Below, piece by piece: positions 32,667 to 53,695 of a stretch of 59,857 nt of DNA. Origin of the DNA: Aquiluna sp. (GTDB taxonomy: Bacteria > Actinomycetota > Actinomycetes > Actinomycetales > Microbacteriaceae); NCBI GenBank assembly GCA_028822985.1, contig JAPKCK010000009.1, positions 1 to 59,857 on the forward strand. The letters run 5' to 3'. Position numbers and translations under genes: made by a program. Numbering within the stretch: position 1 is the stretch's first letter; the number at the start of each line of letters is the position of its first letter. Below the pieces are notes generated by a model that saw only the letters and a program-made list of their open reading frames with translations, was not told where the DNA came from and searched no databases.

Positions 32667-33740
32667 CTAGTTAAGGCGTTCGCCCGACTCGGTGTCGAAG
32701 ACGTGCACTGCCTCTGGATCAGCCTGAAGGTGGATCTTATCTCCGGCCATTGGGTGATCGATTGGGTGCACTCGAACAACAATGTTCTGCTCTGTGCCGT
32801 CTAGCTGAACGCGACCATAGAGGTAGCCATCGCTTCCAAGTTCTTCGATCACGTCAACATCAACTATTAGGCCCTTTGGCGCAACGGTCAGTTTTTCAGG
32901 CCGGACACCTACGGTCACTCGTTTGCCAGTTGCTTTCGCCAGGATTTCGCGAGCAATGGGTAGTACTGCATCTCCGAACTGAACACCGCCGTCAATTATT
33001 GGAAGCTGAACAAGGTTCATTGCGGGTGAGCCGATGAAGCCGGCTACGAAAACATTCTGTGGTCGATCGTAAAGGTTTCTCGGGGTGTCAACCTGCTGTA
33101 GTAGGCCGTCTTTCAAAACTGCAACTCGGTCTCCCATGGTCATGGCTTCCACCTGATCGTGTGTCACATAAACCGTGGTTACTCCAAGACGTCTCTGAAG
33201 TGAAGCAATCTGAGTTCTGGTCTGGACCCGAAGTTTGGCGTCCAGGTTGGAAAGTGGCTCATCCATTAGGAAAACCTGCGGCTGTCGAACAATGGCTCGA
33301 CCCATCGCAACTCTCTGACGCTGACCACCGGAAAGAGCCTTTGGCTTGCGGTTTAGATATGGCTCCAAATCCAATAGCTTGGCAGCCTCTAAAACTCGCT
33401 CTGCACGTTCGTCCTTGTTTACACCGGCGATTTTCAAGGCAAAGCCCATGTTCTCCGCGACGGTCATGTGTGGGTAGAGGGCATAGTTCTGAAAGACCAT
33501 CGCAATATCTCGGTCTTTTGGCGGCACATCGGTGACTTCTCTGTCTCCGATGTAGATGCCACCCTCGTTAACTTCTTCAAGCCCGGCAAGCATTCTCAAT
33601 GAAGTTGACTTGCCACAACCCGAAGGTCCAACGAGAACTAAAAGCTCGCCGTCTTTTACTTCAAGGTTTAGTTTGTCCACCGCTGGCTTAGTTCCGCCTG
33701 GGTAGATTCTGGTTGCATTTTTAAATGACACTGTTGCCAT
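32667..33740 (-). CDS. Multiple-sugar ABC transporter ATP-binding protein (MsiK/UgpC type)
   Basis: A 357-residue CUT1-class ATPase. Walker [10 protein letters not shown], signature LSGGQRQRVAMGRAIV, Walker B VFLMDEPLSNLDA and the H-loop YVTHDQVEAMTM are followed by a C-terminal OB/TOBE regulatory domain with GVRPEKL. No sugar permease or binding protein is adjacent, as for MsiK in Streptomyces, a shared ATPase that serves several sugar importers. A candidate msiK leader RNA sits just upstream. Confidence 0.93.
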   Translation of the reverse strand: MATVSFKNATRIYPGGTKPAVDKLNLEVKDGELLVLVGPSGCGKSTSLRMLAGLEEVNEGGIYIGDREVTDVPPKDRDIAMVFQNYALYPHMTVAENMGFALKIAGVNKDERAERVLEAAKLLDLEPYLNRKPKALSGGQRQRVAMGRAIVRQPQVFLMDEPLSNLDAKLRVQTRTQIASLQRRLGVTTVYVTHDQVEAMTMGDRVAVLKDGLLQQVDTPRNLYDRPQNVFVAGFIGSPAMNLVQLPIIDGGVQFGDAVLPIAREILAKATGKRVTVGVRPEKLTVAPKGLIVDVDVIEELGSDGYLYGRVQLDGTEQNIVVRVHPIDHPMAGDKIHLQADPEAVHVFDTESGERLN

Positions 33741-33744
33741 GATT

Positions 33745-33795
33745 TACTCCTTCACCGGCAGGTACGTGCCGGACGATCCGTAGTGATGGATGTTT
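33745..33795 (-). promoter_or_regulatory. Candidate msiK-type leader RNA
   Basis: On the minus strand two hairpins precede the gene: ATCC/GGAT around an eight-base loop (33776-33791) and CCGGCA-CGTACC-TGCCGG (33755-33772), the second directly before the ribosome binding site AAGGAG (33747-33752). Actinobacteria carry an Rfam motif named msiK, two hairpins with the second near the ribosome binding site, upstream of such sugar ATPase genes. The match is from memory of its architecture. Confidence 0.5.
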
Positions 33796-33874
33796 GCCTA
33801 AGCGAACAACATAAGTATGTCACTGGAATTAGACTTGACCGGCATCGAAATAAAGTTGACGACAAAGGACAAAG

Positions 33875-51453: not shown

Positions 51454-51517
51454 AAAATTAACTCTTTCCCACTTTCTCCCTTTAGCGTTTCTTACCAAAA
51501 AATCCTCATATCCCGCA

Positions 51518-51674
51518 TACTATTTTTACAAGTATTGATTCTTGATCTTCGGGGAAGGAGTGCAGATGCCAGCAAGCATGCCAGCCATGTATGGCAACTG
51601 GATACATCTGTGCCAGTACCCCTGCATATCTATTTGGGAGAACCTACGCGTCGCATTATTGCGGCGCGTTTTTT
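51518..51674 (+). ncRNA. Structured leader RNA/attenuator before HNH gene (candidate)
   Basis: A possible -10 (TACTAT, 51518-51523) precedes a nested fold: GGGG/CCCC (51551-51554 with 51619-51622), GCAGATG/CATCTGT (51562-51568 with 51605-51611), CCAG/CTGG, and hairpin GCCAT-GT-ATGGC (51584-51595). About 24 bases later an intrinsic terminator (51646-51674) follows. It matches no riboswitch I know. The same stretch has an AGGAG-ATG leader frame from 51566. Confidence 0.55.
51646..51674 (+). terminator. Intrinsic terminator inside HNH leader
   Basis: ACGCGTCGC-ATTATT-GCGGCGCGT stem (one G-T pair) followed by TTTTTT. It lies 64 bases before the HNH start, so readthrough or an alternative fold is needed to express the gene from an upstream promoter. 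Confidence 0.85.
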
Positions 51675-51737
51675 ATTACCCAGGGTCAATTCGGATGCCA
51701 GCAGGCCGTGCTGGCGATTTCGATAGGAGATAACTAC

Positions 51738-52244
51738 ATGCGCACCCTTGTCCTAAATGCAGGCTACGAGCCGCTCGCCGTCGTGTCTTTTAAGCGAGCC
51801 TTAGTTCTAGTACTCAATGAGAAAGCCACAATCTTGGCGCGGATCGACCATGAAGTGGTTCGAAGTGCAAGCCAAGAATTCGAAATGCCTTCCGTCATTT
51901 TACTTTCGAGGTATGTCAGAATTCCCAACTCCAGAAGAGTCCCAGTTTCTAGAAGGGGAGTGCTCAGGCGGGATTCTCAGCGTTGCGGTTACTGCGCCGG
52001 TCCCGCGAACACCATCGATCACATCATGCCAAAATCGAGGGGAGGCAAGGACACCTGGGAGAACTTGGTGGCTTGTTGTCTAGAGTGCAATAACTCCAAG
52101 GGGAACCGCACCCCGGCAGAAATTGGCTGGAACTTGAAGGTGTTACCTAAGATGCCAACTGGAACAGTCTGGAGTGTCAGGGGATCTGACAGGCCACTTC
52201 CACAGTGGAGTGAGTTCTTGGCTCTGCAAAAGCAAGCTGCCTAA
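51738..52244 (+). CDS. HNH endonuclease
   Basis: A 168-residue protein beginning MRTLVLNAGYEPLAVVSF, the actinobacterial HNH family. The HNH finger has CGYC and CLEC zinc pairs with catalytic IDHIMPKSRGG and the final ECNNSKGNRTP. The ATG at 51738 has AGGAG eight bases upstream; the frame upstream lacks similarity. The leader carries a terminator and hairpin GCCAGCA/TGCTGGC (51697-51715) just before the ribosome binding site. Not an intron or intein homing gene from context; cellular role unknown. Confidence 0.9.
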   Translation: MRTLVLNAGYEPLAVVSFKRALVLVLNEKATILARIDHEVVRSASQEFEMPSVILLSRYVRIPNSRRVPVSRRGVLRRDSQRCGYCAGPANTIDHIMPKSRGGKDTWENLVACCLECNNSKGNRTPAEIGWNLKVLPKMPTGTVWSVRGSDRPLPQWSEFLALQKQAA

Positions 52245-52306: not shown

Positions 52307-52822
52307 ATGAATCATCAAGAAAAAACCGTCTGGGCGGAACTGTTTGCAAACTTCGCAGTGCTTATTGGCTACTCGGCTTGGCTTTTGGGTCAGCTGGCAC
52401 AAAAAGATGTAAGTGAGATTGCGTACGGCTGGGTGCTGGTCTCAGTTTTCTTGCTGAACATTTTGTTTTCTATCGTGACCCAAATTGTTCTAGTTGTTTC
52501 GGCACACGTCGCCCCGGTGATCGCCGCTCACGTCGGTCCGGTCATCGCAGAAAGGACCGGCAGGCCGATGCCCCTTGAGGTTCCCGCGGTTCAGAACGAC
52601 ACTCGAAGTCCTGGCCTAGTGGATGTGCGGGACAAGGACATAAGAAGCCGCTCTAATTCCACGGGCATGAACATAATGAGCGTGGTTGCCCTAGCAGCTC
52701 TAGCCTTGGCCGCTTTTGAAATTGGCTTTTTTGAGATTGCACACGTCTTGTTTTTTGGTGGCCTAATGGCAAGCATTGCGATGAACAGCGCAAAAATTTG
52801 GTTTTACCGCAAGGGTGTCTAG
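52307..52822 (+). CDS. Membrane protein, first gene of XRE operon
   Basis: A 171-residue protein with four membrane helices in two pairs (NFAVLIGYSAWLLGQL, WVLVSVFLLNILFSIVTQIV, then SVVALAALALAAFEIGFF and VLFFGGLMASIAMNSAKI) around a hydrophilic central region. Similar proteins paired with short XRE regulators are common in Gram-positive bacteria, without clear function. It is directly followed by the regulator. Confidence 0.8.
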   Translation: MNHQEKTVWAELFANFAVLIGYSAWLLGQLAQKDVSEIAYGWVLVSVFLLNILFSIVTQIVLVVSAHVAPVIAAHVGPVIAERTGRPMPLEVPAVQNDTRSPGLVDVRDKDIRSRSNSTGMNIMSVVALAALALAAFEIGFFEIAHVLFFGGLMASIAMNSAKIWFYRKGV

Positions 52823-53035
52823 GTGACTCGTCCCACGAAAATAACCAATCAGGTGCGCCTGCACCGCGTGGCCAAAGACCTGACTCAGGAGCAACTTGCA
52901 AGTCAGCTTGGAGTATCCAGGCAAACCCTGATAGCCATAGAGAACGGAAAGTATTCGCCGTCATTAGAGTTCGCATTTGCGCTTGCAAAGGCGCTTGAGG
53001 TTCAGATCGGTGAGCTTTTCAACTATCCGGAGTAA
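52823..53035 (+). CDS. Short XRE-family transcriptional regulator
   Basis: A 70-residue single-domain Cro/CI helix-turn-helix (DLTQEQLASQLGVSRQTLIA), with the family end IGELFNY. GTG start immediately after the upstream stop codon. It probably binds the palindromes before the membrane-protein gene and autoregulates. Confidence 0.9.
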   Translation: MTRPTKITNQVRLHRVAKDLTQEQLASQLGVSRQTLIAIENGKYSPSLEFAFALAKALEVQIGELFNYPE

Positions 53036-53597: not shown

Positions 53598-53622
53598 ATG
53601 GTCAGCATTTTCTTAAAAAAAG

Positions 53623-53695
53623 TGGCCCCGAGGTGAATCGAACACCCGACACACGGTTTAGGAAACCGTTGCTCTATCCACTGAGCTACGGGGCC
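53623..53695 (-). tRNA. tRNA-Arg (CCT)
   Basis: Complete cloverleaf on the minus strand: GGCCCCG/CGGGGCC acceptor, D arm GCTC/GAGC, anticodon loop TTCCTAA giving CCT, T arm GTCGGGTGTTCGATTCACC-type, discriminator A, then a T7 run. CCA not encoded. Confidence 0.95.

Follow-up and report, generated by a model that had tools for sequence, protein, structure and literature searches.

A predicted translation-coupled attenuator with twin hairpin operators in the leader of an HNH endonuclease gene of Aquiluna

Our analysis suggests, with a probability of about 0.6, that the region preceding the HNH endonuclease gene of this Aquiluna genome is a translation-coupled transcription attenuator of the pyrBI kind combined with two RNA operators, which together control the HNH gene in a way that is likely autoregulatory. 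The window, i.e. the whole stretch of DNA that was analyzed, is a contig of 59,857 bases from a 1.28-Mb genome, in which the leader is flanked by an NlpC/P60 gene (50707-51453) and the HNH gene (51738-52244). An earlier note on this DNA had called the leader "riboswitch- or attenuator-like". The second term fits, given a translated leader ORF, a terminator and a hairpin at the ribosome binding site (RBS) that is conserved family-wide, but the first does not. The upstream ORF (uORF, 51566-51733), the hairpin HP1 (51577-51593) and the strong covariation of the RBS hairpin HP2 were all absent from that earlier reading. The leader comprises the following elements, the −10 box and both Shine-Dalgarno motifs being read from the sequence:

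51518..51523, + strand: putative −10 box TACTAT of the leader promoter, with a transcript start at about 51530
51551..51560, + strand: predicted Shine-Dalgarno motif of the uORF (GGGGAAGGAG)
51566..51733, + strand: uORF encoding a 55-aa leader peptide, spanning the terminator, with its stop 4 nt 5′ of the HNH start codon
51577..51593, + strand: HP1, CAUGC-(C AGCCA U)-GUAUG, in uORF codons 4-10, with an NNCCR pentaloop
51626..51628, + strand: uORF codon 21, AUA (a rare Ile codon); Ile in 16 of 17 Aquiluna peptides, written ATA
51646..51675, + strand: intrinsic terminator and T tract, with a stem at 51646-51669 (10 pairs, loop of 4)
51691..51723, + strand: HP2, 5′ of the HNH RBS, with an inner stem GCCAGCA-(GGCCG)-TGCTGGC, an NNCCR pentaloop and a weaker outer stem
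51725..51729, + strand: predicted Shine-Dalgarno motif of the HNH gene (AGGAG)
51738..52244, + strand: HNH endonuclease gene, 168 aa (Pfam HNH_5, 6.7e-14; HNH, 1.4e-13)

The leader peptide gene and the terminator

A DNA search retrieved the leader from 21 of the 22 genomes of the genus, the single miss (G019) being 77% complete, and from all 13 genus genomes with at least 90% completeness and at most 5% contamination; it retrieved the leader from none of the 37 genomes of other genera in the 59-genome set. The succession of NlpC/P60 gene, leader and HNH gene is kept in the 21 genus loci. The nearest named relatives of the HNH protein come from Aquiluna and other Microbacteriaceae, and the order uORF, terminator, hairpin and HNH gene recurs across this family. 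A consensus scan found no sigma-70-type promoter at the leader; among the positions listed for the leaders of 64 relatives, TANNNT boxes occur at least 57 times between −48 and −38 of the uORF start. On the 5′ side of the promoter box, GCGTTTCT (51485-51492) is conserved in nearly all of the 21 Aquiluna leaders.

Several other elements were noted around HNH genes or elsewhere in the window. A tRNA-Arg (CCT) gene lies near the HNH gene (53622-53695, − strand) and 12 of the 18 HNH loci scanned contain such a gene as well. Positions 52307-53035 hold, as judged by eye, a 171-aa ORF resembling a membrane protein, directly followed by a 70-aa ORF resembling an Xre-type regulator. Of 19 HNH loci scanned in other families, 10 contain the c-di-AMP riboswitch (RF00379), at the expected NlpC/P60-gene side (L110, L111, L112, L113, L115, L121, L122, L123, L126 and L128). 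An msiK RNA (RF01747) was found at 33740-33798 (− strand), with 65.7 bits for a threshold of 33.

The pattern of substitutions points to selection on the uORF as a coding sequence. Codons 1-22, compared among 17 distinct leaders, have a pN/pS of 0.46 in frame compared to 0.86 and 0.97 in the other frames, and none of 300 column shuffles gave so low a value (shuffle minimum 0.47). One of these leaders, L011, is not among the 20 leaders printed by the script and was added by hand to the pN/pS set. The alignment of the 17 leaders is gap-free across the first 24 codons, a purine-rich run is found 5′ of the uORF in the 20 printed leaders, and in these the uORF stops from 12 nt before to 19 nt after the HNH start. 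The peptide, which starts MPASMPAMYGNWIHLCQYPCISIW in the window, reads MPLDMQSRHGNWIHLHQHPCIS in an example relative.

The architecture was read in 109 leaders, 80 from HNH loci of named genomes and 29 found via HP2, and automatic calling recognized a uORF reaching the terminator in 94 of them. The stop codon lies at −3 to +2 of the first base of the terminator in 45 of these 94 leaders, at +14 to +19 (within the terminator) in 27 and further 3′ in 22; since ORFs were counted only if they reach the terminator, only the two sharp peaks of stop position are informative. The sampled leaders indicate that uORF and terminator also recur in some other Micrococcales families: f15 (uORF in 7/7 leaders, called terminator in five), f16 (uORF in 6/6, terminator in five) and f11 (both in its single sampled leader). 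Family f7 has a terminator near the HNH gene in 6/7 leaders and ATG-started frames recognized by eye, one of which passes the Shine-Dalgarno filter of the script, and f19 has a terminator in 3/3 leaders and no uORF under this filter. The architecture is absent or unclear in families f2, f5, f6, f9, f8 and f17.

The codon content of the uORFs departs from that of the accompanying HNH genes: ATA accounts for 60 of 2809 uORF codons compared to 7 of 14,946, the uORFs are also rich in CAA, CAT, TGT, AGT and CAC, and His and Gln are enriched 3.4-fold and 3-fold. The frame dependence of these codons was evaluated on 83 leaders (the 94 minus six with wrong or doubtful frame picks and minus identical copies). 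ATA occurs 55 times in frame, compared to 10 and two in the other frames (mean of composition shuffles 20.3, maximum 33), although it is present in only 48 of the 83 leaders, and CAA 108 times, compared to 13 and 37 (mean 34.8, maximum 53). CAT and CAC, with 66 and 132 occurrences in frame, also exceed the shuffles, but one other frame contains 108 and 102 of them, so that His alone is not clearly selected. Clades differ from each other, with AUA at codon 21 in Aquiluna, CAA repeats in Rhodoluna relatives and His runs in f15 and in L234 and L235. In f7, the short frames preceding the terminator in the HNH leaders L205, L206, L207, L209 and L131 contain two or three ATA codons. Ribosomes may be slow at these enriched codons (AUA, CAA and His).

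The His and Gln enrichment and the His runs would also be expected from a classical his/trp-type attenuator, in which stalling at His (or Gln or Ile) codons during shortage would let an alternative fold block termination, starvation thus inducing the HNH gene. This scheme appears rather unlikely. The search for an antiterminator covered the uORF region of 68 of the 94 leaders with uORF and terminator. No complement to the 5′ arm of the terminator fell below z −1.64 (0/68, mean z +0.48), i.e. beyond shuffles, which speaks against a trp-like antiterminator and led us to reject this candidate; complements to the 3′ arm did so in seven of the 68 leaders. Furthermore, the uORF stop is mostly located at or in the terminator, where the ribosome would block the terminator directly, and HNH is not an amino-acid biosynthesis gene.

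The terminator itself, already recognized by the earlier note, is borne out by its 10-pair stem and T tract, and eight of these pairs are either invariant among the 17 Aquiluna leaders or altered by no more than a single wobble change. The region as a whole folds stably, 51521-51740 being more stable than 200 of 200 shuffles (z −3.38) and 51531-51678 more stable than 199 of 200 (z −2.84). The repeat GATGCCAGCA, present at 51565 and 51694, was also correctly described. Conversely, the nested stems proposed 5′ of the terminator (minimum free energy pairs within 51546-51641) do not covary among the 17 leaders: their score is 0.153 compared to 0.144 for shuffled alignments (equalled by 90 of 500), both-side pair changes number six compared to 9.7 in shuffles, and 66.6% of cells are paired compared to 65.0% (20 of 500 shuffles as high). 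RNAalifold on the same leaders returned the terminator and one weak helix, with a covariation term of −0.64 kcal/mol. The alternative pairing of 51568-51574 with 51709-51715, on which two exclusive folds had been proposed, has 7/7 pairs in only three of the 17 Aquiluna leaders and four to six of seven in the other 14.

A known unrelated RNA in the leader found no support, since no Rfam family reached its threshold at this position, the two weak matches of the scan being mmgR (13.2 bits for 41) and GcvB (12.5 for 42), both far below threshold. The scan of the loci of 34 relatives gave no match at any HNH leader. The HEARO model, which is included in Rfam, matched neither the window nor these 34 loci.

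These results leave a riboswitch with two exclusive folds very improbable. The stability of the fold and the presence of the terminator are in its favor, but its stems and its alternative pairing are not conserved, no Rfam model matches it, and the supposed aptamer is filled by the coding uORF, which led to its rejection; the case illustrates how a coding uORF can be taken for a riboswitch aptamer. An independent sRNA of about 145 nt, ending at the terminator and acting in trans, would likewise account for the promoter-like box, the terminator and the stable fold. Its prospects are slim, since the stems lack covariation, the substitutions follow codons and the position directly 5′ of HNH is constant in the genus loci.

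Two covarying hairpins with a common loop

The alignments and model searches indicate that HP1 and HP2 each covary, that the two hairpins are alike and that HP2 is specific to HNH. The RBS hairpin noticed earlier (arms 51697-51703 and 51709-51715) corresponds to the inner stem of HP2. The covariation analysis that the earlier note had proposed for the leader thus gave opposite answers for its parts, HP2 covarying strongly and the nested stems not at all. In an alignment of 62 leaders, from which the nine leaders devoid of HP2 and near-copies were left out, the seven inner pairs all show both-side changes, with 93.1% of inner cells paired compared to 64.8% for the weaker outer stem. The whole-structure covariation of HP2 is 0.406, compared to 0.171 for shuffled alignments (0/500 as high) and at most 0.127 for slid structures.

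HP1 was examined in 55 leaders, of which six of seven pairs covary, with a score of 0.431 compared to 0.170 for shuffles (0/500) and at most 0.112 for slid structures; this shuffle control is biased, since the rows comprise only the leaders where a scan rewarding pairing had found HP1. In an unselected check, the best NNCCR hairpin per leader averages 13.5 compared to 7.1 in shuffles, and 61 of 108 leaders reach the 5% level. Fixed cut-offs applied to 107 leaders recognized both hairpins in 91, neither in eight, HP2 only in four and HP1 only in four. The loops of both hairpins are NNCCR with an invariant CC.

The resemblance of the two hairpins was also apparent from model searches. The HP1 model matches the window, one of its own training rows, with an E value of 0.00059. 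On the 28 loci found via HP2, it recovered HP1 from 26 loci, with E values of up to 0.35, and HP2 as well from 10 loci, and only two of its 38 matches lie elsewhere than in HP1 or HP2. Tests of both models are not fully independent, since for some of the loci the species is identical or nearly identical to that of a training row (L168/L042, L177/L048 and L193/L069 being examples).

The HP2 model gives a single strong match in its own genome (E 1.7e-10; next 1.95). Among 60 genomes of the family, 51 carry HNH, and 34 of these have an HP2 match (E ≤ 0.1) adjoining it. The 65 matches in these 60 genomes include 31 located elsewhere, those starting at E 7e-4, whereas the 31 matches with E ≤ 5e-4 all adjoin HNH. 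In the 17 HNH-bearing genomes without an HP2 match adjoining HNH, eight leaders show a divergent HP2 by eye (L223, L224, L226, L227, L230, L232, L236 and L237) and the other nine, including that of the distant paralogue L238, are unclear or devoid of it. When applied to the nine Rhodoluna-type loci and to 24 HNH loci from other families or classes, the model gave no strong match; two weak ones were obtained, just 5′ of HNH in L122 (E 0.45) and away from the HNH leader in L035 (E 0.26).

Nine Rhodoluna-type leaders have neither HP1 nor HP2, yet retain HNH and the terminator. On trees of the HNH protein, explaining their distribution takes three changes on the best tree and more than one on every bootstrap tree, but the well-supported branches force only one change. 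In the larger tree, the automatic label of hairpin-less leaders also included L028, L053 and L071, in which HP2 is imperfect and not absent. The only HNH residues that track hairpin loss are A14G and R101K, neither of which is found in all three clades.

The strong covariation of both hairpins and the HNH specificity of HP2 could suggest that feedback relies on the hairpins alone, bound by HNH or another RNA-binding protein, the peptide and the terminator being minor, and one leader (L078) indeed has HP2 without HP1 or a recognized terminator. We consider this quite unlikely, since most of the nine Rhodoluna-type leaders retain uORF and terminator despite the loss of the hairpins and since both are also found in other families devoid of HP2.

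A model for the control of the HNH gene

Under the translation-coupled attenuator with two operators, which is our preferred explanation, a promoter located just 5′ would produce the leader RNA, whose first ORF would encode a short peptide. If a ribosome close behind RNA polymerase reaches the end of the uORF, it would cover the 5′ arm of the terminator, which would then not fold, and transcription would proceed into HNH. In Aquiluna, the ribosome would traverse the terminator up to the HNH start, whereas in most relatives it would end translation at the terminator or within it. Slow passage over the enriched AUA, CAA (and His) codons, or a failure to initiate, would instead let the terminator fold and release an RNA of about 145 nt (approximately 51530-51675), the expected product of termination. 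We infer this direction of control from the position of the stops: a ribosome located there would mask the terminator, so that translation of the uORF most likely allows the HNH gene to be transcribed, and the slow codons may act as the sensor.

Data from E. coli are compatible with such coupling. PMC4824070 reports that the ribosome represses a terminator almost completely when it lies a few bp past a stop codon, and that the terminator is free beyond about 27-30 nt; PMC5021804 reports that, in pyrL, stalling of the ribosome ahead of the terminator increases termination. One of these two reports also finds that a terminator located within 100 bp of the start of a coding region is hard to suppress. 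Since the terminator starts 80 nt past the uORF start, the ribosome would need a polymerase pause to catch up, which counts against the explanation that we prefer.

HP1, located in early uORF codons, and HP2, located against the HNH Shine-Dalgarno motif, would be the sites of one factor lowering the translation of both uORF and HNH. Bound to HP1, this factor would hinder the uORF; bound to HP2, it would hinder HNH initiation. Because HP2 is specific to HNH, the simplest and most economical candidate for this factor would be the HNH protein itself, which would amount to negative feedback.

The HNH protein is probably a DNA-cutting enzyme. Relatives were found in 83 of the 119 genomes sampled from the phylum, and a literature search found no function for this HNH family. 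IscB/Cas9-type proteins rank on top of its matches to solved structures, and hhalign aligned its HNH domain with that of IscB over 54 columns covering the HNH part only (98.0%, E 1.7e-13), RuvC being absent. Its first 35 residues or so are co-linear with the N-terminus of IscB (PLMP), with a weak similarity (34 aligned columns, 10.3%, E 0.003) whose score was reached by one of 300 column shuffles. Proteins with PLMP and HNH but no RuvC correspond to the definition of IshB-like proteins. Economy and this weak PLMP resemblance make the HNH protein a lead as the ligand of the hairpins.

A bolder version of the model, which we hold to be doubtful, goes further: this RuvC-less HNH protein with an IscB-type, PLMP-like N-terminus would bind the twin NNCCR hairpins of its own mRNA, one over the start of the leader ORF and one against its own Shine-Dalgarno motif, and these would be the domesticated or convergent counterpart of the omega-RNA end contacted by the PLMP domain of IsrB, a guide scaffold having become an autoregulatory operator coupled with a slow-codon sensor.

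Relation to known systems and biological meaning

The closest likeness is to pyrBI (pyrL) of E. coli, where the terminator lies inside the leader ORF (a 135-bp leader gene) and coupled translation prevents it (PMC4824070, PMC5021804). By contrast, the present leader precedes no pyrimidine gene, the uORF of most relatives stops at or in the terminator rather than passing through it, and AUA/CAA-rich codons and two covarying hairpins are found here whereas a UTP-sensing pause is a feature of pyrBI. In pyrBI too, the leader stop is located a few nt before the structural gene. Leaders of the his/trp type likewise place an intrinsic terminator after a leader peptide with enriched codons, but the present ones have no antiterminator partner in the uORF regions searched and precede an HNH endonuclease gene.

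The second likeness is to IsrB/IscB and their omega RNA (HEARO), in which a hairpin adjoins the Shine-Dalgarno motif of the gene of an HNH-bearing protein, the HNH domain studied here being profile-related to that of IscB (98% probability). In PMC9581776, the PLMP domain of IsrB is described as contacting terminal hairpins of the omega RNA, one of which holds the Shine-Dalgarno motif, and its authors suggest a role in self-expression. Differences are also clear: the protein here has 168 aa and no RuvC, HP2 has 33 nt and not the approximately 300 nt of an omega RNA, no HEARO match was obtained, the gene order is constant in the genus and the PLMP resemblance is weak.

A literature search found no description of this leader, and neither HNH nor any of several genus names searched for was found in PMC2965389. 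Leader-peptide attenuators are already known; the HNH gene family, the family-wide design with a stop in the terminator and the twin pentaloop hairpins are unmatched in Rfam for the loci scanned and in the literature search.

Overall, a conserved attenuator with paired operators would mean that the amount of HNH is under tight control linked to translation, and would provide a direct handle on when this enzyme is used. Should the HNH protein prove to bind HP1 and HP2, it would represent a member of the wider IscB kinship that lacks RuvC and binds RNA at its own start, and part of the origin of RNA guidance would then become testable in a chromosomal gene.
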